A stretch of DNA of 40,951 bases, taken from the NCBI GenBank assembly GCA_017538195.1, contig JAFYJH010000070.1:1-40951 (forward strand). Reading direction: 5' to 3'. Source of the stretch: Prevotella sp. (GTDB taxonomy: Bacteria; Bacteroidota; Bacteroidia; Bacteroidales; Bacteroidaceae). Shown one piece after another: positions 15,569 to 32,162 of this stretch. Positions within the stretch are counted from its first letter, which is position 1. Each line of letters starts with the position of its first letter. Position numbers and translations under genes: made by a program. The notes under the pieces are model-generated. The model saw only the letters and a list, made by a program, of their open reading frames with translations. It was not told the DNA's origin and made no database searches.

Positions 15569-18500
15569 ATGAAAAGAAAACATTTACTCGTAGCAATTGC
15601 AACGCTGATTCTGCCGCTGAGCACGATGGCGCAGGGCTATCATTTTGTACAAAAAGACGGATTGGAATACATCTGCAAAGACGGCGACGACCCCGACAAC
15701 GACGAAAATCTCTTTATCTATGTTGGATCCTGGGATTGGTGGACGACCACTGGCACATCAGCAGGTGTGCGTATTCTGGTGAAAGACGACGAAGGGAACG
15801 AAGAAGAAATCAAGAATAGCAGGTATTTGTACCACCCCTCACTCCGTGCCAACTGGCGTAAAAACACATTCTGGAACGACAATTCTGCTGGCCACGAAGG
15901 TGAATACTTCCTTTTGTGGTATAAAAAATACCCAGTAGGACATGAGTATCATGGAAAAGGCTTAGATGAGATGACAGACATGTCGAACGTTGGTAAATAT
16001 GCATTTGGTAAAATTGATGATATGAGGGGTGTAGAATACTTCACGGCTCTGCAGAAATTAGCCGTTAGAGGTGAAAGTACCACTTACGGTCTAACTCTCG
16101 ATTTGAGCAACAATCATAGCTTTAATTCGCTGACATACAGTACTAATTCGAGTCAACAACCCAAAATCAGATCATTGAACATCACCGAAACACAAATGAC
16201 CTCGCTGACGTTTCCAACAAGCACAGCAGCCTACTTGGAAGAACTGATCATGGAAGACAATTTGCCTCTTACCACGCTGACATTCCAAGGAACTGCAAAC
16301 TTCACGAAACTGAAGACACTCGACCTCAGCCATACGGGAATCACGACGTTCTCCGGCCAATATCTCACAGCCCTGACTTCGCTGACAGCCCAAAATTCCC
16401 AATTGACCACGCTCGACATCTCGTATTGCACGGCATTGGAGAAGTTAGACGTTTCCGGCAGCAGCAGCCTTGCCACGCTGACAGTGGCAAGCAGTGCTCA
16501 GACAGCATTGGAAGAAATCAACGTGGCAGGAACGGCACTAACCTCGTTAGACCTCTCGAACTATACGAATCTGGCAACGGTGACAATTACCACAGGCCAG
16601 TTCGGTGCGAACAACGAAAATTTGACATTACCAGGGCCGGGTTGGGCAAAAATCGCCGAACACGGAACGACAGAAACGTGGGCAGACGTCTCAAAAATTC
16701 ATGTTTTGACAGTCGATGTGTCGGACAAGACGAACAAAACCGTCGATGTGACGAACTACACTGCGCTGCACACACTGACTGTAATCGGAGCAAACGAAGT
16801 CATACTGCCAAGCACTGCTAACACCACCGACCATTTCACCCTCACGATGACTGGCTGCTCGGATGCCTATGTTGATTGGAGCGACAGAGAAGCAAACCTG
16901 AAAGAACTCACGCTGAACGATGTGAAGAGTTTCAATGCCAGCGATTTCACCAATCTGGAAACGCTGCGCTACATGGGACAGGAGTCAATCGACCTCACCC
17001 TCTCGACAGGAAACACCACGTTGAAAACATTGGACATCACGCGAAGCGGACTCACCGAACTCGACCTTTCAGGTGGCGAAGCCCCGAATCTCGTCACCGT
17101 GAAAACGTGGTATGCGCCGCTCACGAAACTCGACCTCACGAATCACACGAGCCTGCTGAGCGCACCCTACCCAAGCCACGACAATATGCTCCCGAGCACG
17201 AGCAAAATCTATATCAAGGACGGTGCATATAAGACCGAGGCTGAAATCATGGCAAGCAATCCTTCTGATTATGCGGATTATTTAGTCACCGACCCCAACG
17301 AATGGATTGGCTTGAACCTGCTGCCCGTCACCAAGTCGCAACACGACTGGTTCGACATCTACGCCGACGAGCATTTCGAAAATTCCATCACCGACATTGC
17401 AGATTACAACGCCAACAACACGCTGGAAACCATCATTCTGGCAGGTTGCACAAGTCTGACCGACGTCTATCTGACGCACGGTGCCGACGACACGCACACA
17501 TCGGCAGACGATGACCAATGGCTGTACTACAATATACTTAAGACCGTCGATATGTCCGGCTGTACAGGTTTGACGGGCATCCATGCCACAAACACGCTGA
17601 TGACCACGCTGAATTTAAATAATTGTTCGAATCTGGAAGAGATTTCCATCGACCAAGGTCTGTTGGCAGGCAAGGCGGCATCGGCAGGCGCAACGGGCAT
17701 CTGGATCGACGGTTGCGACAATATCAAGATATTCAAGGGAAACCGCCAACAATTCACCAATCTGGATTTCCTGCTCAAGCCAGACGGCTCTCGCGATGCT
17801 TCTGACATTGCGAAACTTCAGGAAATCCACGCAAGCGGCGGCAGTTATACCATCAAGGATAACGAAGGTGCTCCCATCATCAGGGAAAATGGCGGCAACA
17901 AGATTAAAATCACCAATCGCATCGGCGAAATCGACCTGACGAACCTCGCCGGTTGGGATGAAGAAAACCCAAGCAGCGACAGACTTCGGAAACTGATTAT
18001 CGACTGTAACCTGCTGAAAGAACTCGACTTGAGCACAAACAATATCGGTCAAGGATTGCAGCAACTGGTCTGCTCAAACAACATGCTGACCACGCTCGAC
18101 CTGAGTCCGCTGACAGAGGCTGTGAAAAACGGTGTTCTGAATCTGAACGCCTGCGACTGGAAATATCAAGTCAGCTATGCGAGTGCGGAGGTCGTGAAAG
18201 GGCAATGGGAAAGCGGTGCATGGAAAACGTTTGAAACATCGGAAGAAGAGGCTGCACAGTCGGGCATTCACGACTGGGTGGCACTTCACATGGAACACGG
18301 CGGTTTCACCCACTATATGGACAACATCCTCGGCCTTTACTGGAATCTCCACGATGCCCGTTGGGATGAGGAACAAGGCATCAGCCCAGACGCTGAAAAC
18401 TCAAGAAGCCTCGCCAAGGAAGCCGACTCTTGGATGTGCAGAGTAACCGAAGTGCCGACCATCGCCGGAACAAAAGACACCGACAATGAACTCCCCGGAG

Positions 18501-19810
18501 CAGAAAAGTTCGTCGGCGACAATCCCTGCCCTGTAGGTCACCAAGAATATCAGCACATTTTCCTACATTCACAGCCAGAAATCACAACCGATTTCGGTGC
18601 ATTCAAAGACCAAGACCTCACGGGATGCGTACTGGGTTACAAGTACAACACAGGATTTGTGCAGGAGCATATCAAGAATGAAGTTACAGACAAGTTGAAT
18701 CTCGACCCCGCAGAAGGCGACATCCATTATTCTTTGCAAAAATACGAATCTGGTTTCAACTATGAGATTTCCAATTACTATGCTGAAGCCGATAAAATCA
18801 ATGTCAAGAAAGACAAAAATACAGAATACACATCGAACGAGTTGATAGACGAATTCGGCCACATCGTCGTGCGTGTCCACCTGAATCCTTATCTGCTCAA
18901 CATCAATCCGAGGTCGAAAAGCCCGATGTCGGTGCAACAAAAGCAAGTCGATTACTTCTCCAGCACCGTCATACTCGACTACGACGCTGCAATTCCTGCT
19001 GGCGTAACTTGCTATACCACCAGCCGAGTCAAAACAACCAACAAAGTATTTGAGGTTGCAGGACAGGCTTTGGACGGACAACTTGAAATGGTTGCATTCG
19101 GTGGCGAGGAAGACTCCGATGGCAACTGGATTCTACCAGCCAATACGCCAGTTTATGTCAAGTCCACATCGCCGCAGCCTGCCGGACTCTATGCCTTCCA
19201 ACCCATCCGCGAAGTCAATGTGCTCGGTTGGGAGAACGTGCGCGGTGCCTACAATCAAGAAGATTTCATGCTTCACGGTCTCGACGACCTGAATTCGGGA
19301 GAAACTTTTAGAGAGGGATATTCTCAAGAGGATCTCAACAAAGCTAAAGATCGTCTGACAGGATCAGGAAAGAACGCCGGTAACATCTTGGAAGGCTACA
19401 TCGCTCCAAAATATGATGTGGACATCTATAATGAGGACTACAACAAAGTGGTTGATGCAACCAAGACTTTGGGAGTAAATAAGAGAACGGTGCTCGTCTT
19501 AGGCGTTCAAAACCAGAAATCCACATGGCCTGTCATCGGCTTCTGGCCCTACAACGGCACGACGATCCAATCTCATCGATGCTTCATCCGGTCGCACCAT
19601 CTCTATCCGAGCGGGACAGGCTCAGCCAAGGGATTCAACTTCTTCTTTGTCGGAGTAGAGGATGTCGCAGATGTTACTGGCATCAATACGGTGGACGAGA
19701 AGGTAACCGACGAAAACGTGTGGTACAACATGCAGGGTGTGCGCCTCAACGCCCAACCCACGCAGCACGGCGTGTATATCCACAACGGCCAGAAAGTTGT
19801 CATCAAGTAA
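15569..19810 (+). CDS. Giant secreted leucine-rich-repeat protein 1
   Basis: 1413 residues. A Sec signal peptide (1-21, ending M-A-Q) is followed by a repeat region of about 100-850 with many L-x-x-L-D-L-S/L-x-x-L-x-I-x-x-T units of an irregular LRR type. A conserved domain follows (H-D-W-V-A-L-H-M-E-H-G-G near 890), then a region with I-L-P-A-N-T-P-V-Y-V-K and G-W-E-N-V-R-G seen in many Prevotella exoproteins. The C-terminus W-Y-N-M-Q-G-V-R-L ... G-V-Y-I-H-N-G-Q-K-V-V-I-K looks like the family's sorting tail, perhaps for type IX-like secretion or surface attachment. No catalytic motif is seen, so binding or adhesion is likely. It is paralogous to the gene at 21902 but lacks its dockerin. A small acidic protein gene follows after 16 nt. 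Confidence 0.85.
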   Translation: MKRKHLLVAIATLILPLSTMAQGYHFVQKDGLEYICKDGDDPDNDENLFIYVGSWDWWTTTGTSAGVRILVKDDEGNEEEIKNSRYLYHPSLRANWRKNTFWNDNSAGHEGEYFLLWYKKYPVGHEYHGKGLDEMTDMSNVGKYAFGKIDDMRGVEYFTALQKLAVRGESTTYGLTLDLSNNHSFNSLTYSTNSSQQPKIRSLNITETQMTSLTFPTSTAAYLEELIMEDNLPLTTLTFQGTANFTKLKTLDLSHTGITTFSGQYLTALTSLTAQNSQLTTLDISYCTALEKLDVSGSSSLATLTVASSAQTALEEINVAGTALTSLDLSNYTNLATVTITTGQFGANNENLTLPGPGWAKIAEHGTTETWADVSKIHVLTVDVSDKTNKTVDVTNYTALHTLTVIGANEVILPSTANTTDHFTLTMTGCSDAYVDWSDREANLKELTLNDVKSFNASDFTNLETLRYMGQESIDLTLSTGNTTLKTLDITRSGLTELDLSGGEAPNLVTVKTWYAPLTKLDLTNHTSLLSAPYPSHDNMLPSTSKIYIKDGAYKTEAEIMASNPSDYADYLVTDPNEWIGLNLLPVTKSQHDWFDIYADEHFENSITDIADYNANNTLETIILAGCTSLTDVYLTHGADDTHTSADDDQWLYYNILKTVDMSGCTGLTGIHATNTLMTTLNLNNCSNLEEISIDQGLLAGKAASAGATGIWIDGCDNIKIFKGNRQQFTNLDFLLKPDGSRDASDIAKLQEIHASGGSYTIKDNEGAPIIRENGGNKIKITNRIGEIDLTNLAGWDEENPSSDRLRKLIIDCNLLKELDLSTNNIGQGLQQLVCSNNMLTTLDLSPLTEAVKNGVLNLNACDWKYQVSYASAEVVKGQWESGAWKTFETSEEEAAQSGIHDWVALHMEHGGFTHYMDNILGLYWNLHDARWDEEQGISPDAENSRSLAKEADSWMCRVTEVPTIAGTKDTDNELPGAEKFVGDNPCPVGHQEYQHIFLHSQPEITTDFGAFKDQDLTGCVLGYKYNTGFVQEHIKNEVTDKLNLDPAEGDIHYSLQKYESGFNYEISNYYAEADKINVKKDKNTEYTSNELIDEFGHIVVRVHLNPYLLNINPRSKSPMSVQQKQVDYFSSTVILDYDAAIPAGVTCYTTSRVKTTNKVFEVAGQALDGQLEMVAFGGEEDSDGNWILPANTPVYVKSTSPQPAGLYAFQPIREVNVLGWENVRGAYNQEDFMLHGLDDLNSGETFREGYSQEDLNKAKDRLTGSGKNAGNILEGYIAPKYDVDIYNEDYNKVVDATKTLGVNKRTVLVLGVQNQKSTWPVIGFWPYNGTTIQSHRCFIRSHHLYPSGTGSAKGFNFFFVGVEDVADVTGINTVDEKVTDENVWYNMQGVRLNAQPTQHGVYIHNGQKVVIK

Positions 19811-21901: not shown

Positions 21902-24900
21902 ATGAAAAGGAAACAACTACTCTTAGCAATCGCGGCCATGTTGCTCCCGATGAGCATGGTGGCGCAGACAAACCAGACCGATCCCTATACGGGACTTAAC
22001 TATCTTGACGATGGCGACGGAAAGTGGTACATCAATGCTCTGCAAACCACCTATTTTACCGACCAAGACTTGCGTCCGTTCTGGAGAAGGGCTTTCAACA
22101 ACAATGTGACAAAATTCTACAAAGACGACTTGAATGGTGTGAAAGTAATCGGTCTGTCACATACTTGGAGTGGAGGTACAGCAACTGCACCCAATGGTAA
22201 TAGTGGTCGCCAAATGGTGTTCGGTGGTATTGCGTATTTTCAGGGGCTTGAGGATCTCACCATCAAGTCTGGAAGTGCCAAGTCGGTGGTATTAGATTTG
22301 TCGAAGAACAAAAGCCTGAAATCGCTGACCTTTGATCAGAGTACCATCAAGTTGCAAACGTTGAACATCAGCAACACGCAACTGACCTCGCTGACCATCC
22401 CCACGGGTAGTGCCAGCATGCTGGAATCGCTGACGATGGGCAGTGTGCCAACCCTTACCTCGCTGACATTCGGAGGTTCTAACGACTTCACGAAACTGTC
22501 TAGTTTGGATGTAAGCGAAACGGGGCTGACCTCACTTAACTTGTCTTTGTGTACAGCCCTTGCAAGCGTCAAAATTGACAAGACGAAACTGACCGTGGGA
22601 GATAATTTAACACTTCCCAGCCCATCTGAATGGATTAAGAAAAAGACCGTGGGGGATGTTGAAACTTGGGTTCGTGGTGCAAATATTACGACACTGACGG
22701 TAGATGCTGCCGAGGAAGGAACAACTGATATTGACGTTTCGGCATATCCAAAATTGCACACGCTGACCGTGATAGGTGCCACCAGTGTAAAGTTGCCGAG
22801 CACCGTCAACACAACCAACTATTTCACCCTTACGATGACCGACAGCCCTAACGCAACAGTAGATTGGAACGGCAGAGAGGATATGTTGGTAACACTTACT
22901 TTGAACGATGTGGGAACTTTCGACGGTACGGGCTTCACGAGTCTGACAACGTTGAAATATCTGGGATCAGGATCAAAAAACCTCAAGCTCTATGCCGGTG
23001 ACAACGATGCCCTTACGAAGTTGGATGTTTCCAAGAGCGGAATAACAAGCCTTGACCTCTCGGGTGGAGAAGCGCCGGATCTCGCGGAGTTTAATTGCTG
23101 GTGGTCGGATTTGGAATATTTGGACTTGTCGTATCATACAAAGTTGGAATGTAGAACCGCCCTTACAACGACTAAGCTGAAGATCATCCCCCCGTATAAC
23201 TCAGGAACCAACTATCCCGCAGGCTACGGGATTCCCAATAATGACGATGGCGTTGCCACTTATCACAGTAAGGACAAATTGCGCGTTATCAAACTCCGCG
23301 GGTGTACGGGATTGGGATTGTATAATGGTAACCCCCCGGAGAACTCGGATGAGGAGGGTAGCGTTCATCTTTGGTTGTCGCCGAAAAATGTTAATTCAAA
23401 TCCTGTCATTATGAGTGCATTGGAGGAAGTGGATCTTTCCGGTTGCACGAATTTAAAGCGATTTGAATGTCAAAATTCTTTGTTGAAGAATTTGAATCTT
23501 TCCGAATGCACGTCGCTGAACGTCATTTCTATCAACCAAGGAATGCTTACGGGAAATGGTGACGTCAACATTACAAATTGTAATTCTTTGACAGGTCTGA
23601 TTGCCCACCGCCACCAGTGGGAAACGTTGGACTGGCTTTTGAAAGATCCCCCCTTTGATATTAGCAATCTGACCCAGATTCAGGTGAACGGTGGTAGCTA
23701 CACGATGTATGGCGTTTCGGGTGCGAAGAACACAAGATATGTCAGAGAAGTTTACAATGAGGAAACTGGGCAGATGGAACCGCTGAAATATACGTGTCGC
23801 CTGAGCGAGTTGAGTTTGTCTGGCGTATCCGACAAATTCAAAAAACTTCTCTGCGAAGACAACCTGCTGACAACCTTGGACTTGGGTGCTGCTGCACCTC
23901 ATTTAACATTGTTGCAATGCCGCAACAACTTGCTGACAACCCTCGACCTCAGCGGTTTGAATCATGAGACTTTGTTTGATCCAGACGCTGCTGAAGCTGA
24001 CAAGTACAACTCTCGATGGAGTCCGCAGGTAGGATTTGTGCCAGTGGAAATCGTTCGTGGTGGCTATCAGCATCCTGAGATTCACGGTGGCCACGACTGG
24101 ATTGCCCTGCACATGGAGAACGGTGGCTACTCACACAAATTGGACAACGAGGTCGGCCTCTACAATAATCTCTACAACGCGATGACGGAGGGTGGGGAAA
24201 AAATCGGAGCGAAAGATTATCCGTACATGATGACTGTACAACAGGCCGAAAACCATGCCGATTTTGCAAACGACTATCTGTGTCCCACAAATCACACTGG
24301 GCAGCACATCTTCCTGCAGTCGCAGGCAGACATTTACAATCACACCGGTGGCTACAAGGATCAGGACCTGTATGGAAAACTGCTGACCTACAAATACAAT
24401 ACGGGTTACAACCAGAATAAGACTACAAATCCGATTTCGGGTTTGGAAGACCTGCCTGACGGAACCCCTATTACTCCTGAGTATGGACCGAGCAGGTATG
24501 ATCCGCACATCACCGTGCGTATGCACATCTGGCCCTTTATTCTCAACGTCAATCCAGCTTCGCTTTACACATTTAAAAAGAAGTTAGAAAACTCAGAAGA
24601 GGAAGAAGAAGTTTCCTTCTATTCCAGCACCATCTGCCTCGACTACGACGCTGTGATTCCAGAAGGTGTGGAAGTCTATTTTGTAGAAGGTCTTACAGAT
24701 CCGAATGCCGTCACCAGTGCATTGGGCGGATACGCTTCCAATCCAAATGAAGAAAATGCCCAGTTCGTGATGAACAAGTTTGGCAAAGGAGGCGACATTC
24801 TTCCTGCCAATACGCCAGTGTTTGTGAAAGTTGCCAATGCGGGCCTCTATGACTTCCAAGATGCTCGTGAGTTTGTCTTGAAGGGTTGGGAGAACCTCAG

Positions 24901-25573
24901 AGGCGACGGTGAGGAAAAAGATCATATTTTGCATGGTGTGGAAAGCAATACAGAAAGAAATATCAAGAGCAAATTAGAAACGCAGTACAACGCCGCTGTT
25001 GACTTGAAAGCATTGATGATGGAGAATGGTGGCAACATCCTGACAGGTGTTTACGGTAAAAGAAATGATGCATCGAACATCTACGATCCCCTATACAGCA
25101 CGTGGGACGAAACGGACTTAACTGTCGAGAAGAGGACTGTGCTTACACTGGGTCGTCAGACAGATAAGTTCAACACTAAAATCATGGGCTTCTGGCCCTT
25201 CAATGGCACGAAAGTCACCCATCACCGTTGCGTGATCTTGGAGAGTGATTATAACAATGCAGTTTCTCGCGCCAAACAAAAAGCAGCAGAAGCAGCAGCA
25301 GGAGAAGAAGCAACAGCAAGTAGTGAGGCGACACCGAAGTTCTCTACAATGGGCGGTTCGTTCTTCTTCGTCGATAACATTTTCTTCTCGGAAGATGTGG
25401 GCGATGCCAATGGTGATGGCGTCGTGAGTATTGCCGATGTCACGGCGATTATCAATAAGATTAACGGTGTCGTGACGGGAAAATTTGTGGAAAAGGCCGC
25501 TGACGTCAATAAAGACGGCATCATCAGCATTGCCGATGTAACTGGAGTTATAAACACTATTAACAATCAATAA
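21902..25573 (+). CDS. Giant secreted leucine-rich-repeat protein 2 with C-terminal dockerin
   Basis: 1223 residues. The signal peptide (1-22, ending M-V-A-Q) nearly copies that of LRR protein 1. The repeat region is about 90-750; it shares with the paralogue the H-D-W-I-A-L-H-M-E-N-G-G domain (about 730), the K-D-Q-D-L-Y-G-K block, L-P-A-N-T-P-V-F-V-K and G-W-E-N-L-R-G. The end differs. Residues about 1165-1221 form a type I dockerin with two Ca2+-binding loops, D-A-N-G-D-G-V-V-S-I-A-D-V-T (from Asp1168) and D-V-N-K-D-G-I-I-S-I-A-D-V-T (from Asp1201), 33 residues apart. Just before it is an Ala/Glu/Gln-rich linker. Dockerins bind cohesins, and a cohesin-like gene follows after 9 nt. No catalytic motif is seen. 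It likely acts outside the cell. Confidence 0.88.
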   Translation: MKRKQLLLAIAAMLLPMSMVAQTNQTDPYTGLNYLDDGDGKWYINALQTTYFTDQDLRPFWRRAFNNNVTKFYKDDLNGVKVIGLSHTWSGGTATAPNGNSGRQMVFGGIAYFQGLEDLTIKSGSAKSVVLDLSKNKSLKSLTFDQSTIKLQTLNISNTQLTSLTIPTGSASMLESLTMGSVPTLTSLTFGGSNDFTKLSSLDVSETGLTSLNLSLCTALASVKIDKTKLTVGDNLTLPSPSEWIKKKTVGDVETWVRGANITTLTVDAAEEGTTDIDVSAYPKLHTLTVIGATSVKLPSTVNTTNYFTLTMTDSPNATVDWNGREDMLVTLTLNDVGTFDGTGFTSLTTLKYLGSGSKNLKLYAGDNDALTKLDVSKSGITSLDLSGGEAPDLAEFNCWWSDLEYLDLSYHTKLECRTALTTTKLKIIPPYNSGTNYPAGYGIPNNDDGVATYHSKDKLRVIKLRGCTGLGLYNGNPPENSDEEGSVHLWLSPKNVNSNPVIMSALEEVDLSGCTNLKRFECQNSLLKNLNLSECTSLNVISINQGMLTGNGDVNITNCNSLTGLIAHRHQWETLDWLLKDPPFDISNLTQIQVNGGSYTMYGVSGAKNTRYVREVYNEETGQMEPLKYTCRLSELSLSGVSDKFKKLLCEDNLLTTLDLGAAAPHLTLLQCRNNLLTTLDLSGLNHETLFDPDAAEADKYNSRWSPQVGFVPVEIVRGGYQHPEIHGGHDWIALHMENGGYSHKLDNEVGLYNNLYNAMTEGGEKIGAKDYPYMMTVQQAENHADFANDYLCPTNHTGQHIFLQSQADIYNHTGGYKDQDLYGKLLTYKYNTGYNQNKTTNPISGLEDLPDGTPITPEYGPSRYDPHITVRMHIWPFILNVNPASLYTFKKKLENSEEEEEVSFYSSTICLDYDAVIPEGVEVYFVEGLTDPNAVTSALGGYASNPNEENAQFVMNKFGKGGDILPANTPVFVKVANAGLYDFQDAREFVLKGWENLRGDGEEKDHILHGVESNTERNIKSKLETQYNAAVDLKALMMENGGNILTGVYGKRNDASNIYDPLYSTWDETDLTVEKRTVLTLGRQTDKFNTKIMGFWPFNGTKVTHHRCVILESDYNNAVSRAKQKAAEAAAGEEATASSEATPKFSTMGGSFFFVDNIFFSEDVGDANGDGVVSIADVTAIINKINGVVTGKFVEKAADVNKDGIISIADVTGVINTINNQ

Positions 25574-25582
25574 AGGAAAAGT

Positions 25583-26815
25583 ATGAAAAGGTTTTTGATT
25601 TTGCTGTCACTCTTTGCAGCGGTAATCTTCCCTGCCTCGGCAGACGAGTATATCTCGGTTGAGAATTTGTCCATACCACAGGGCAAGCAGGCAGAAATGG
25701 TTGTATATTTCAATTTCAACGAAAATCATGAGTATGTCAGTTACCAGTTCACCATAGAATTGCCGGAAGGCGTTTCTTTGGTGGCCGACGAATACGGCAA
25801 GGTAGCCGTCACACTGGCCGACAACCAGCCTGCGGCATTGTACACAGCGAGCCTTGTGGCTTCCACGGGCATTGTTTCGGTTTATTCTGACCCGTCCACT
25901 CCGATAGCAGGTTCTTCGGGCACATTGGTTCGCATTCCCGTAGAGGCTTCAGCAGCTTTGGAAGTCGGCACGAATCTGACAGGTCGCCTGAAGACCGTGG
26001 AGTTTACGAAGAATACGGGATCCGTGCGTACTCCGTTTGCCGATGCCACGATAAACATCACGATTGCCGAGCCTCGACTTGTGTTCGACGAGAATTCAAC
26101 TTTTATGCCTACTTTCACCGCAGGCGCAAAGGAGAATGTAAAGATGAACCGCACGATCAAGGCTAATCAGTGGAGTACGATTGTGCTGCCCTTCACGCTG
26201 ACAAAGGCGAAGGCTGAGGCAGCTTTCGGCAGCGATGTTCAGTTGGCGGAGTTCAGCGGCTTTACAGTGGACTATGGCGATGACGACGAAAACGTGACAC
26301 CGCTCGGCATTGCCTTGAACTTCAGCACCTATACGATGAGTTCGAAGAAGCCAATGACGGGTGGCAAAACCTTCCTGATTAAGACGAGCAGCGACATCAC
26401 CAGTTTCGAGGCCGACGACTGTACGTTGGTGGCAACCGTGACTGACACGGAAAAGACCGACGAATTCGCCACCGCTGGCAAGTTCACAGGTTCGTTGGTG
26501 AAGACGAAAGTGCCTGCCGACGGTCTGTTTATCGCAGAAAACAAGTTTTGGTATTCTACGGGCGCAACCAACATCAAGGCTTTCCGCGGTTGGTTTGAAC
26601 TGGGTGCCGTGCTCGACAAGGAAACAGATTTTAGTTCAAAAGTTGCTTTCTTTATTGACGACATTCCGACTTCTATCGATGGTCTGGTCGGTTCTGTTCG
26701 TCAGCAAGGCGATATTTATACGCTCGACGGTCTGTATGTCGGTCGCAACATCCCGACAGAGCGTCTGAAGAAGGGCATCTATATCGTAAATGGAAAGAAA
26801 GTAGTAATTAAGTAA
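25583..26815 (+). CDS. Secreted cohesin-like protein with C-terminal sorting tail
   Basis: 410 residues. The signal peptide (1-20, ending A-S-A) is followed by a cohesin-like domain (about 22-155): S-V-E-N-L-S-I-P-Q-G-K-Q-A-E, V-S-Y-Q-F-T-I-E-L-P-E-G-V-S-L and G-S-S-G-T-L-V-R-I-P-V-E. The middle (about 175-345) is a beta-rich domain with W-S-T-I-V-L-P-F-T-L, G-K-T-F-L-I-K, L-F-I-A-E-N-K-F-W-Y and F-R-G-W-F, frequent in Prevotella exoproteins. The end reads Y-T-L-D-G-L-Y-V-G ... K-K-G-I-Y-I-V-N-G-K-K-V-V-I-K, as in LRR protein 1. Cohesins hold dockerins by a Ca2+-dependent contact, so the natural partner is LRR protein 2 immediately upstream. The domain call rests on pattern, as Bacteroidetes cohesins are divergent. 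Its stop overlaps the next start (TAATG). Confidence 0.75.
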   Translation: MKRFLILLSLFAAVIFPASADEYISVENLSIPQGKQAEMVVYFNFNENHEYVSYQFTIELPEGVSLVADEYGKVAVTLADNQPAALYTASLVASTGIVSVYSDPSTPIAGSSGTLVRIPVEASAALEVGTNLTGRLKTVEFTKNTGSVRTPFADATINITIAEPRLVFDENSTFMPTFTAGAKENVKMNRTIKANQWSTIVLPFTLTKAKAEAAFGSDVQLAEFSGFTVDYGDDDENVTPLGIALNFSTYTMSSKKPMTGGKTFLIKTSSDITSFEADDCTLVATVTDTEKTDEFATAGKFTGSLVKTKVPADGLFIAENKFWYSTGATNIKAFRGWFELGAVLDKETDFSSKVAFFIDDIPTSIDGLVGSVRQQGDIYTLDGLYVGRNIPTERLKKGIYIVNGKKVVIK

Positions 26816-28925: not shown

Positions 28926-31900
28926 TTACTGCCCCAACAGGTGGCGGATGGCGGCTTCGAGTTGTGGGTCGCGTCCGTTGATGTAGTCCTCGGGCGAGTT
29001 GTAGACTTCGATGTCGGGCCAGAGTTCGGCGTTTTCGGTCCACTGGCCGCGCAGGTCTTTCTTGCCGACCTGCGGAATGCCGAAGACGAGCGAGCGGTCC
29101 ATCAGCGTTTCCCACCACACACTGGTGGCGGTGCCTGCGACGGGCGTACCGACGAGTTTGCCGATGCCGAGTTCGCGATAGACCCACGGGAAGCCCTCGC
29201 CGTTGCTGTAGCAGTCTTCGTTCATCAGGACGCACGAGGTGCCGACCCATTTCGCCAACGGGTCGCGTCCGACATACTCGCCACGCGGCAGGAAATTATG
29301 GTAGAGTTTGCCGCTGAGCAGCGTGCAGAGGTCGTCGTGGAGCCAGCCGCCGCCGTTGTAGCGCTCATCGACGATAACGCCCTCGCGGTTGCGGTTTTCG
29401 TCGTTGAGGATGTCGCTGTAGAGTTCGCGGAAACTCTCGCTATTCATCGATTTGATGTGGACGTAGGCCAGACGACCATTCGACAGGCTATCAACGAGGT
29501 GGCGGTTGTGTTCCACCCATCGCTTGTAGAGCAAATCGCTGAGTTGTCCGCTGCTAACGGGCTTGATGGTCACGTCGTTGCGCTGCTTCGTGTTCGGGTT
29601 ATAGACCGTCACGCGCACGGGCTTGCCTGCCTTTCCGTCGAGCATCCAGTTATAATCTTCGCCAGCCTTGATGTCGTTGCCGTCGATTTTCTCGATGATG
29701 CAACCGGCGGTGACACCCGTTTTCTTCACGGCGAATGGACCGCGCTTGATGACTTCCTCGATGCGCAGGCCGTCGCCCTCGTAGTTCTGGTCGAAGAAGA
29801 GGCCGAGTTGCGCCGTAGAAAGACCCGACGAAGCCGGACGATAGCGCGCACCCGTGTGCGAGGCGTTCAGTTCACCGAGCAATTCGCTGAGCAGGTCGCT
29901 AAAATCGTAGTTGTTGCTGATGTGGGGCAGGAATTTCTCGTAGGTGGCGCGATAGCCTTCCCAATCGACACCATGCAGATTCGGTTCGTAGAACTTGTCT
30001 TTCACCTGTCGCCAAACGTGGTCGAAGAGGTAGCGACGCTCCTCGTAGGGTTGGAAGTTGAACGGAGCCTCGAAAGCAATGACTTCCGACTTGTTCTTGC
30101 CTAAATCGACCTTCTTGATGGTGTTTGAACTGAGGAAAATGTTCTTGAACGCCTCATCGACCTGCATTCTCGCACCGCCCACATCTTTCAGCACGAGTTC
30201 GGTCTTGTTTTCGAGGAAATCGCGCTTCCAGAGGTCGAGTCCGCCCTCAAACGATGCCTGATAATAGAGCGTGTCGCCCTTCGGCGAGAGGATGGCATCG
30301 CCCATGTGACTCGACGCGGTGGTGAGGCGCACGATGCGATCGCGGCAGTTGTCGAGGTCGAGTTGGAGAGGAGCCACTTTCGACTTTTCGGGCTTGTCGG
30401 CATCCTTTCCTGCCGGTTTTTTGCCTTTGTTTTTATCGTCTTTCTTGTCTTTTTCAGCATTGTTGGCAGCCTTTTTCTTCTCTTTTTCCGCCTCATCCAA
30501 AAGTGCTTTTTCTTCCTTCGTCATACGGAAACGGTCGTAGGCTTCGAGGTCGAAGAACATCAGATAGGCATCGTCCTCCGAGCCCCAACTGCCGTGCGAG
30601 CGATAGCCTGCGCGGTCGCTCTGGTAGAGCATCGCCTTACCGCCGAGCGCCCATTTTCCGCGTCCGTCGCTGTAGGCACTGTTCGTCAGGTTGTGGATTT
30701 CGCCACTGCCCGAGGCATCGACGATGGCAATGTCGGTGCTGTGCCAACCGCCCTTGCCGATGTAACCCGTCATCAGCCAACGGCTGTCGGGACTCCACTC
30801 AAACCACAGGTCGCCGTCGCTGTAGGAATAGTTGAATTTTCCGTCCATCGCCGTGTGAACCTGCTTCGTGGCAAGGTTCATCACGCGCAGCGCACCGCGA
30901 TCTTCAAAGAAGGCGACCATTTTTCCGTCGGGACTGTATTTCGGCTGTTGCGAGGTCAAGTTGGTCTGCGTGAGGCGTTCCTCCTCGAGTTCCGTCGCAT
31001 AAGTAAAGAGTTTTTCATCCTTGTTTTTGATGCCCGTGCGGAAAATCTGCCACACGCCGTTGCGCTCGGCGGCATAGATGACGCTGCGACCGTCGGGCGA
31101 GAAACTGACATTGCGCTCCTGCTCGGGCGTGTTGGTGATGCGCTTCGTGGTTTTGTAGTCGATGGAAGTCACATAGACGTCGCCGTGGGCGATGAAGGCG
31201 ATTTCCTTGCCCGAAGGCGACAAGCCGATTTCCGTCGCGCCGTTGGTCAGCGTCTGGCGCACGAGGTCGCGGTCGCTGCGGTCGGCAACGATGCTCACGC
31301 GCACTTTCTGCGGAATGCCACCCTCGCGGAAGGTGTAGATTTCGCCGTCGTAGCCGTAGCAGAGCGTGCCGTTTTTCGCCGCCGTGAGGAAGCGCACGGG
31401 ATTACCCTTGTGATGGGTCAATTGTGTGCCGCCCTTCTTCCAAACATTAAACGTGCCGTCCTGCTCGCTCAGGTAATAGTACGAGCGTCCGTCAGCAGTC
31501 CATACGGGCGTGCGGTCCTCGCCGCGAAAATCGGTCAGTTTCGTGTATTTTCCGTCCTTCAACAGCCAAATGTCGCGTGTCACGGCACTCTGATGATGCT
31601 TGCGGAATGCGTCCTCGTAGCCTTTCACATCGTGGTAGAGGATGTCGCCGTCGGCGTTGATGCTGATGTCCTCCATCGTGATAACCGAAAACAACTTCGG
31701 ACGACCGCCCTCGGTGCTCACCTCATAGACCTGCGGAAAGATGCTTTCCGCCAACAGACTGCTTTTCACCGTCGGCATCATCGCCGCACGAAACAGCACG
31801 TGGCCGTTGTCGCGGAAGGCAATCGGCGTTTCCTTCACGCTGTTGGTCGTCAGACGCTTCGGAACGCCGCCCTCGCGGTTGATGAGATAGACATCGAAGT

Positions 31901-32162
31901 TGCCTTCACGGTCGGAGGCAAAGGCGATCTGCCGTCCGTCGGGACTCCACACGGGCCACGCTTCGTAGGCCGCATTCGTCGTCAGTTGTCGAGCCTGTCC
32001 GCCCGTCGCAGCGACGGTGTAAAGGTCGCCTTTGTAAGAAAACACAATCGTTTCGCCGTCGGGCGAAATGGCCGGATAGCGCATCCAGAGCGGTTTTTCC
32101 TGCGCTGTGGCGGTCGCGGTTGTCAGTGCAAGGACCGCCGAGAAAAAAATCTTTCGAATCAT
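28926..32162 (-). CDS. Tricorn-like S41 family protease, secreted
   Basis: 1078 residues. Signal peptide 1-20 (A-T-A-Q). The first two thirds form WD40/TolB-like beta-propeller blades with repeated S-P-D-G-x-x-I/V-x-F (for example I-S-P-D-G-E-T-I-V-F and W-S-P-D-G-R-Q-I-A-F). A Lys-rich linker (about 555-600) follows, then a tricorn C1-like region, a PDZ domain (around 770-860) and the S41 peptidase domain. The likely nucleophile is about Ser986 in E-D-C-Y-S-N-G-E-G-F. Tricorn proteases degrade peptides in archaea; bacterial periplasmic forms may act in peptide turnover. The length matches the family. A terminator and its own -7 box separate it from the upstream secDF gene. Confidence 0.93.
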   Translation of the reverse strand: MIRKIFFSAVLALTTATATAQEKPLWMRYPAISPDGETIVFSYKGDLYTVAATGGQARQLTTNAAYEAWPVWSPDGRQIAFASDREGNFDVYLINREGGVPKRLTTNSVKETPIAFRDNGHVLFRAAMMPTVKSSLLAESIFPQVYEVSTEGGRPKLFSVITMEDISINADGDILYHDVKGYEDAFRKHHQSAVTRDIWLLKDGKYTKLTDFRGEDRTPVWTADGRSYYYLSEQDGTFNVWKKGGTQLTHHKGNPVRFLTAAKNGTLCYGYDGEIYTFREGGIPQKVRVSIVADRSDRDLVRQTLTNGATEIGLSPSGKEIAFIAHGDVYVTSIDYKTTKRITNTPEQERNVSFSPDGRSVIYAAERNGVWQIFRTGIKNKDEKLFTYATELEEERLTQTNLTSQQPKYSPDGKMVAFFEDRGALRVMNLATKQVHTAMDGKFNYSYSDGDLWFEWSPDSRWLMTGYIGKGGWHSTDIAIVDASGSGEIHNLTNSAYSDGRGKWALGGKAMLYQSDRAGYRSHGSWGSEDDAYLMFFDLEAYDRFRMTKEEKALLDEAEKEKKKAANNAEKDKKDDKNKGKKPAGKDADKPEKSKVAPLQLDLDNCRDRIVRLTTASSHMGDAILSPKGDTLYYQASFEGGLDLWKRDFLENKTELVLKDVGGARMQVDEAFKNIFLSSNTIKKVDLGKNKSEVIAFEAPFNFQPYEERRYLFDHVWRQVKDKFYEPNLHGVDWEGYRATYEKFLPHISNNYDFSDLLSELLGELNASHTGARYRPASSGLSTAQLGLFFDQNYEGDGLRIEEVIKRGPFAVKKTGVTAGCIIEKIDGNDIKAGEDYNWMLDGKAGKPVRVTVYNPNTKQRNDVTIKPVSSGQLSDLLYKRWVEHNRHLVDSLSNGRLAYVHIKSMNSESFRELYSDILNDENRNREGVIVDERYNGGGWLHDDLCTLLSGKLYHNFLPRGEYVGRDPLAKWVGTSCVLMNEDCYSNGEGFPWVYRELGIGKLVGTPVAGTATSVWWETLMDRSLVFGIPQVGKKDLRGQWTENAELWPDIEVYNSPEDYINGRDPQLEAAIRHLLGQ

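Follow-up and report, generated by a model that had tools for sequence, protein, structure and literature searches.

The DNA analyzed here, referred to as the window, is a 40,951-nucleotide (nt) contig of Prevotella sp., a relative of rumen bacteria (JAFYJH010000070.1, assembly GCA_017538195.1), read on the forward strand, and the subject of this study is a pair of adjacent plus-strand genes in it, the first encoding a leucine-rich repeat (LRR) protein that ends in a dockerin and the second a 410-amino-acid (aa) protein with a cohesin-like domain and a C-terminal tail. The first gene, LRR2 (21902..25573), encodes 1223 aa with a signal-peptide-like N-terminus, leucine-rich repeats, and a C-terminal dockerin, and carries no tail. 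A gap of 9 nt (25574..25582) separates its stop codon from the next ATG, both genes being in one frame, and the 410-aa protein (25583..26815) is composed of a signal-peptide-like N-terminus, the cohesin-like domain (residues 22–166, 25646..26080), a middle domain (residues 167–354, 26081..26644), and the tail (26645..26812), which ends in KKGIYIVNGKKVVIK (also written GIYIVNGKKVVIK) and is a putative sorting tail of the type IX kind. The two N-termini were assigned with a crude script. The list of open reading frames (ORFs) returned both frames, their coordinates, and the gap as the first-pass annotation of this DNA had recorded them. The middle domain is common to other tailed proteins that have no cohesin domain; together with the tail (26081–26812), it is found again at the ends of further large proteins, and neither Pfam nor NCBIfam matches it.

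The dockerin of LRR2 (residues 1167–1221, 25400..25564, plus strand) is matched by Dockerin_1 (PF00404) at an E-value of 4.8e-9 and 36.7 bits, above the curated cut-off of 22.9, over profile positions 2–57 of 57 and thus over both segments of a type I dockerin. The two calcium-loop segments, read from the translation, start at D1168 (25403..25438) and D1201 (25502..25537) and have the residues SIADVT in common, so the complete type I dockerin that had been noticed at this end of the protein is confirmed. LRR_4 matches LRR2 at 3.6e-5, slightly under its cut-off, and neither the tail profile nor a cohesin-like domain is found in the protein. PDB entry 2jnk, which we take to be a FIVAR-dockerin structure, is a weak match to LRR2 (0.011). 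The window also encodes a 1413-aa paralogue, LRR1 (15569..19810, plus strand), which ends in a tail (HGVYIHNGQKVVIK) and has no dockerin at its end. LRR1 and LRR2 share 33% identity over 1224 aligned columns, and the main match extends to LRR2 residue 1112, beyond which LRR2 has the dockerin and LRR1 the tail; hence, the dockerin occupies a tail's place here.

The gene pair is conserved in relatives. A four-row profile of the whole 410-aa protein was searched against 301 genomes of the taxonomic family and matched 76 rows in 40 genomes at 1e-25. The pairing set consists of 51 near-full-length rows (the window and L061–L110) together with L029 and L030, giving 53 loci; eight partial rows were left out, as was L031, whose contig starts inside the gene, and the 17 rows without the N-terminal part were used as controls. 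Upstream dockerins were scored with a profile of 32 dockerins taken from these loci, and a same-strand dockerin ORF was found directly upstream of the anchor gene in 48 of the 53 loci, at a spacing of −62 to 220 nt (60 nt or less in 43), with the dockerin no more than 31 aa from the C-terminus in 45 of the 48 partners. When the four rows that made up the search profile are excluded, 44 of 49 loci are paired. Since the arrangement is repeated in 48 of 53 loci, it is no chance one. Among the controls, which share the middle domain and lack the cohesin domain, none of 15 testable members stands next to an upstream dockerin (Fisher test of paired loci against controls, 3.5e-11), and the 16th testable one (L212) is paired and turned out to carry cohesin-like domains. 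Among 393 genomes of the order, the only match at 1e-40 beyond the own genome is in a genome of another family (L210), and it is paired as well. The first-pass annotation had named lack of conservation as grounds for giving up the pair, and the opposite was found.

The own genome, which is 83% complete, has two further loci of the same kind. In one of them (C42), the upstream protein ends in a half dockerin that scores below threshold; in the other (C46), a half dockerin is N-terminal in a small secreted protein encoded approximately 300 nt before a cohesin-like frame that is cut by the contig end. In total, this genome has three cohesin-like genes and seven dockerin matches, of which one is over the cut-off; two of the seven (L002 and L003) presumably are SusC-like frames with chance loop matches.

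The cohesin-like domain was recognized through its family. Profile A2, an alignment of this domain from 50 of the 53 loci (L069, L075, and L095 being omitted as near-duplicates), finds solved cellulosomal cohesins in the PDB, with 5n5p as the best match (9.1e-7), ScaE (2zf9) as the second (9.3e-6), and further anchoring scaffoldins among the others. Similarly, the Pfam cohesin model PF00963 matches 16 of the 50 members at E-values up to 1 (best, 6.4e-9), and homology of the domain family to cohesins was therefore found by both routes. The window copy is not among these 16. A profile of the 36 members that do not belong to the window's subclade finds it at 2.3e-29. By itself, the 410-aa protein has no match in Pfam or NCBIfam at E-values up to 1 and none in PDB sequences at E-values up to 10; the PF00963 search of the own genome gave no match, the window copy included; and the profile of the window's 14-member subclade reaches ScaE at a non-significant 0.18, behind two flagellins. 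Because no single-copy match exists in Pfam, NCBIfam, or the PDB, the cohesin reading is impossible from the window copy alone. The first domain had been described as cohesin-like from its sequence in the first pass, which the 50-member profile bears out and the window copy alone does not. It is taken here as a diverged cohesin, with its fold predicted from the family profiles.

The tail profile, built from proteins of the anchor type, matches all 53 anchors; as the model used to select the loci includes the tail, this count is no independent evidence. The informative figure is that for the 48 dockerin partners, of which the profile matches one (L067). A signal peptide was placed by script in 37 of the 48 partners, with no lipobox seen in those 37. 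The genome carries a type IX translocon and sortase, SprA (2636 bits) and PorU (1033 bits), the two components of the system that were searched for. TIGR04183, the curated model of type IX tails, does not match the 410-aa protein, while sub-threshold matches of this model overlap with five related tails in the genome. A tail on the 410-aa protein and none on LRR2, as claimed in the first pass, is what the tail profile gives.

The partners that carry the dockerin have mainly LRR and Ig-like domains. Pfam models (E-values up to 1e-4) were run on 46 of the 48 partners, two near-duplicates being left out and some partners being fragments, and matched dockerin in 44, LRR_5 in 21, LRR_8 in 15, Big_2 in 11, and Cthe_2159 in two. 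Enzyme-linked families are a hyaluronate lyase N-terminal domain in two partners and a CotH kinase in one, and no glycoside hydrolase or peptidase is among the 25 of 26 families listed for them. The earlier suggestion that the pair would display a binding surface rather than an enzyme agrees with this dominance of LRR and Ig-like families. A cellulosome reading of the pair was rejected, the anchor having one cohesin-like domain and the families listed including no glycoside hydrolase. Regarding the ends of these proteins, 26 of the 48 partners (L030 and L062 to L107) terminate in Pro-(Gln/Glu/Asp), often LDPQ, which LRR2 does not; the same ending occurs in two of 252 other ORFs of these loci, and one of those two looks like a dockerin ORF itself.

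In our interpretation, LRR2 is probably a dockerin client and the 410-aa protein its cohesin surface anchor that uses type IX secretion. LRR2 would be a Sec-exported leucine-rich-repeat binding protein with a dockerin in place of the LRR1-type sorting tail, and the 410-aa protein would be a single-cohesin anchor directed to the outer surface by its tail and the type IX system. The dockerin of LRR2, with calcium, would dock onto the cohesin domain of the anchor, and the LRR protein may thereby be displayed by its partner. We infer the binding, the calcium need, the export route, and the surface location from sequence comparison. The first-pass interpretation of the pair is supported by its conservation and by the co-variation described below. 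Besides the missing single-copy cohesin match and the TIGR04183 result, several points weigh against it: five of the 53 anchors have no upstream dockerin; two of the 48 pairs are weak, L061 having a half dockerin (0.03) and L110 a dockerin at 1e-4 away from the C-terminus; and some dockerin proteins in dockerin-rich relatives do bear tails.

An alternative, which we consider unlikely, is that the cohesin-like domain serves only as a beta-sandwich of structural or adhesive function, with the two genes encoding co-expressed surface adhesins and the dockerin being a calcium-stabilized cap or a module that binds something else. The absence of a cohesin match for the window copy and of a significant one for its subclade would fit it, and what speaks against it, besides the unpaired controls, is the co-variation of the two domains. 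In a mirror-tree comparison of 42 of the 48 pairs (L061, L067, L069, L075, L091, and L110 being left out as half, internal, weak, or duplicate), dockerin distances correlate with those of the neighboring cohesin domain at r = 0.483, with the middle domain at 0.208, and with the tail at 0.103, although such signals can be inflated by the joint descent of linked genes. With the middle domain held constant, the partial correlation between dockerin and neighboring cohesin is 0.461 (p 0.001, 1000 permutations); a residual dockerin–middle domain correlation of 0.134 (p 0.03) with the cohesin fixed is a further point against the docking interpretation. Tree distances give 0.445 for the cohesin, 0.251 for the middle domain, and a partial correlation of 0.406. 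The cohesin domain follows the neighbor's dockerin over the middle domain of its own chain (0.483 vs. 0.192; difference 0.285, interval 0.103 to 0.455). Moreover, for 25 of 42 loci, the nearest locus of another genome by cohesin domain also ranks among the closest 5% by dockerin distance; when the nearest locus is chosen by the middle domain, this holds for five of 42.

A second alternative holds that each dockerin binds a cohesin-like domain within its own chain or within another copy of that protein, the downstream gene having some other role. In its favor, and against docking between neighbors, 35 of the 48 dockerin proteins bear cohesin-like domains of their own, often directly before the dockerin, and in five loci, the in-chain and neighboring domains group together on the tree. 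Overall, the two classes are mostly separate on the tree (10 changes vs. a mean of 23.7 and a least value of 18 in 300 shuffles), and LRR2 itself has no such domain. For the 31 pairs with an in-chain domain before the dockerin, the dockerin correlates at 0.603 with the neighboring cohesin vs. 0.36 with the in-chain one, a bootstrap difference of 0.243 with a narrow margin (95%, 0.01 to 0.507); the nearest-locus measure gives 19 for the neighboring and 13 for the in-chain cohesin. With the neighbor's domain fixed, the in-chain correlation drops to 0.158 (p 0.07), while the reverse gives 0.536 (p 0.001), and self-binding is on these grounds very unlikely as the explanation of the pair.

Dockerin-rich relatives present another arrangement. 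The five unpaired anchors sit in genomes with 18–29 dockerins, and in a post hoc test, five of 12 loci in such genomes are unpaired vs. none of 39 elsewhere. One of the dockerin-rich relatives, G110, has 29 dockerins, and the A2 profile finds a single cohesin-like domain in it. Twenty of its 29 dockerin proteins (L190–L209) were analyzed; all 20 end in dockerins, which are 78% identical on average vs. 42% among the 42 paired ones, and none of the 20 bears the tail. LRR proteins, three peptidase families, an endonuclease, and lectin-like domains are represented among them (25 of 35 families listed), and the dockerins of these varied secreted proteins are very similar (TIADVTALVNIILGK). PF00963 also matches a 1296-aa frame of G110 (2.4e-5) that A2 does not match, and frames of approximately 1296 aa recur among the PF00963 matches. 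That the 410-aa protein of the window is likewise a general anchor for its genome's many dockerin proteins, with the adjacency of LRR2 incidental, is what G110 and the five unpaired anchors would speak for, and it is highly improbable for the own genome, where one dockerin is over the cut-off and, of three cohesin-like genes, one is beside a full dockerin and two are beside sub-threshold half dockerins.

A tentative extension of the anchor–client interpretation, which may be right and which we hold with less than even confidence, is that the dockerin is a detachable export signal. Tail-less proteins would bind a tailed cohesin partner in the periplasm, cross the outer membrane with it, and stay anchored, in arrangements that would range from private pairs such as the one described here to a hub in which a single anchor serves approximately 29 clients, as in G110. 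If true, the scheme would be a Gram-negative cohesin–dockerin system that has an anchor, cohesins, and a set of clients of its own.

Other dockerin-rich genomes have genes that combine cohesin, dockerin, and tail, and genes with several cohesins. The multi-cohesin genes (L171 in G125:C18, L173 in G139:C44, and L174–L177) are possible scaffoldins, and L171 has six cohesin-like and four dockerin domains across two adjacent genes. Pfam dockerins occur in 38 of 40 genomes with the anchor and in 140 of 261 without it; therefore, many dockerin genomes are without this anchor type. PF00963 is over its cut-off in 81 of the 301 genomes, and its strongest matches in this search are at L185 (G272:C382), a frame whose C-terminus resembles an SLH repeat and whose contig is possibly a Firmicutes contaminant.

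Cohesins and dockerins outside cellulosomes, as here, are found in Archaeoglobus fulgidus and ANME archaea, and as a GH84 dockerin in C. perfringens (2jnk/2ozn). The cohesin–dockerin pair of A. fulgidus lies in adjacent ORFs. We know of no type IX tail or LRR client among these non-cellulosomal modules. The archaeal non-cellulosomal cohesins and dockerins were verified to bind (PMC9012536). ScaE of Ruminococcus flavefaciens and the single cohesin of R. albus resemble the 410-aa protein in having one cohesin on a surface-anchored protein that receives dockerins, the anchoring role being called likely in R. albus (PMC6118326), while the window pair differs from them in its type IX-like tail, its client gene next door, and its LRR or Ig-like clients. 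Typical scaffoldin anchors are sortase and SLH modules, with further domains (PMC12484212). In comparison with type IX cargo, the 410-aa protein has a C-terminal tail of similar make-up in a genome with SprA and PorU; it differs in the missing TIGR04183 match and in that its tail would serve a docked partner.

In Bacteroidetes, metagenome-assembled genomes were described with dockerins and none with a recognizable cohesin, and the cohesins may be too diverged (PMC7260996); the role of rumen Bacteroidetes dockerins was called not defined (PMC7480376); and one studied genome was stated to have no cohesins or dockerins, as in other Bacteroidetes (PMC5831590). Cohesins were also reported in certain Bacteroidetes, with tandem cohesins in a dockerin-rich Bacteroidetes bin (bin 136) (PMC6071333), and a distinct cohesin group was reported in the cow rumen (Bensoussan 2017, as cited in PMC5742341). 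Given PMC6071333 and the PF00963 matches over the cut-off in 81 of 301 genomes, this pair is not the first indication that the phylum has cohesins. The available passages on rumen Bacteroidetes describe neither a tailed single-cohesin gene directly downstream of a dockerin gene nor LRR clients, and the listings and passages found in the literature search contain no report of this gene pair.

Elsewhere in the window, the region 28929–32162 on the minus strand has TolB-like propeller matches and a C-terminal S41-type peptidase similarity beside secDF. The Rfam search of the whole window gave no match, and a Bacteroidetes-type promoter pattern has no plus-strand match directly before 21902.

The pair provides a candidate dockerin partner that escapes the Pfam model in the window, as do 34 of the 50 domain-family members. 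It bears on a puzzle raised in the literature, namely dockerins that occur in Bacteroidetes without cohesins, and may explain the purpose of dockerins in this group. The pair further suggests a way in which the surface might be reached by proteins lacking a type IX tail, and cohesin–dockerin anchoring would with it come to include LRR adhesins and an export route across the outer membrane.

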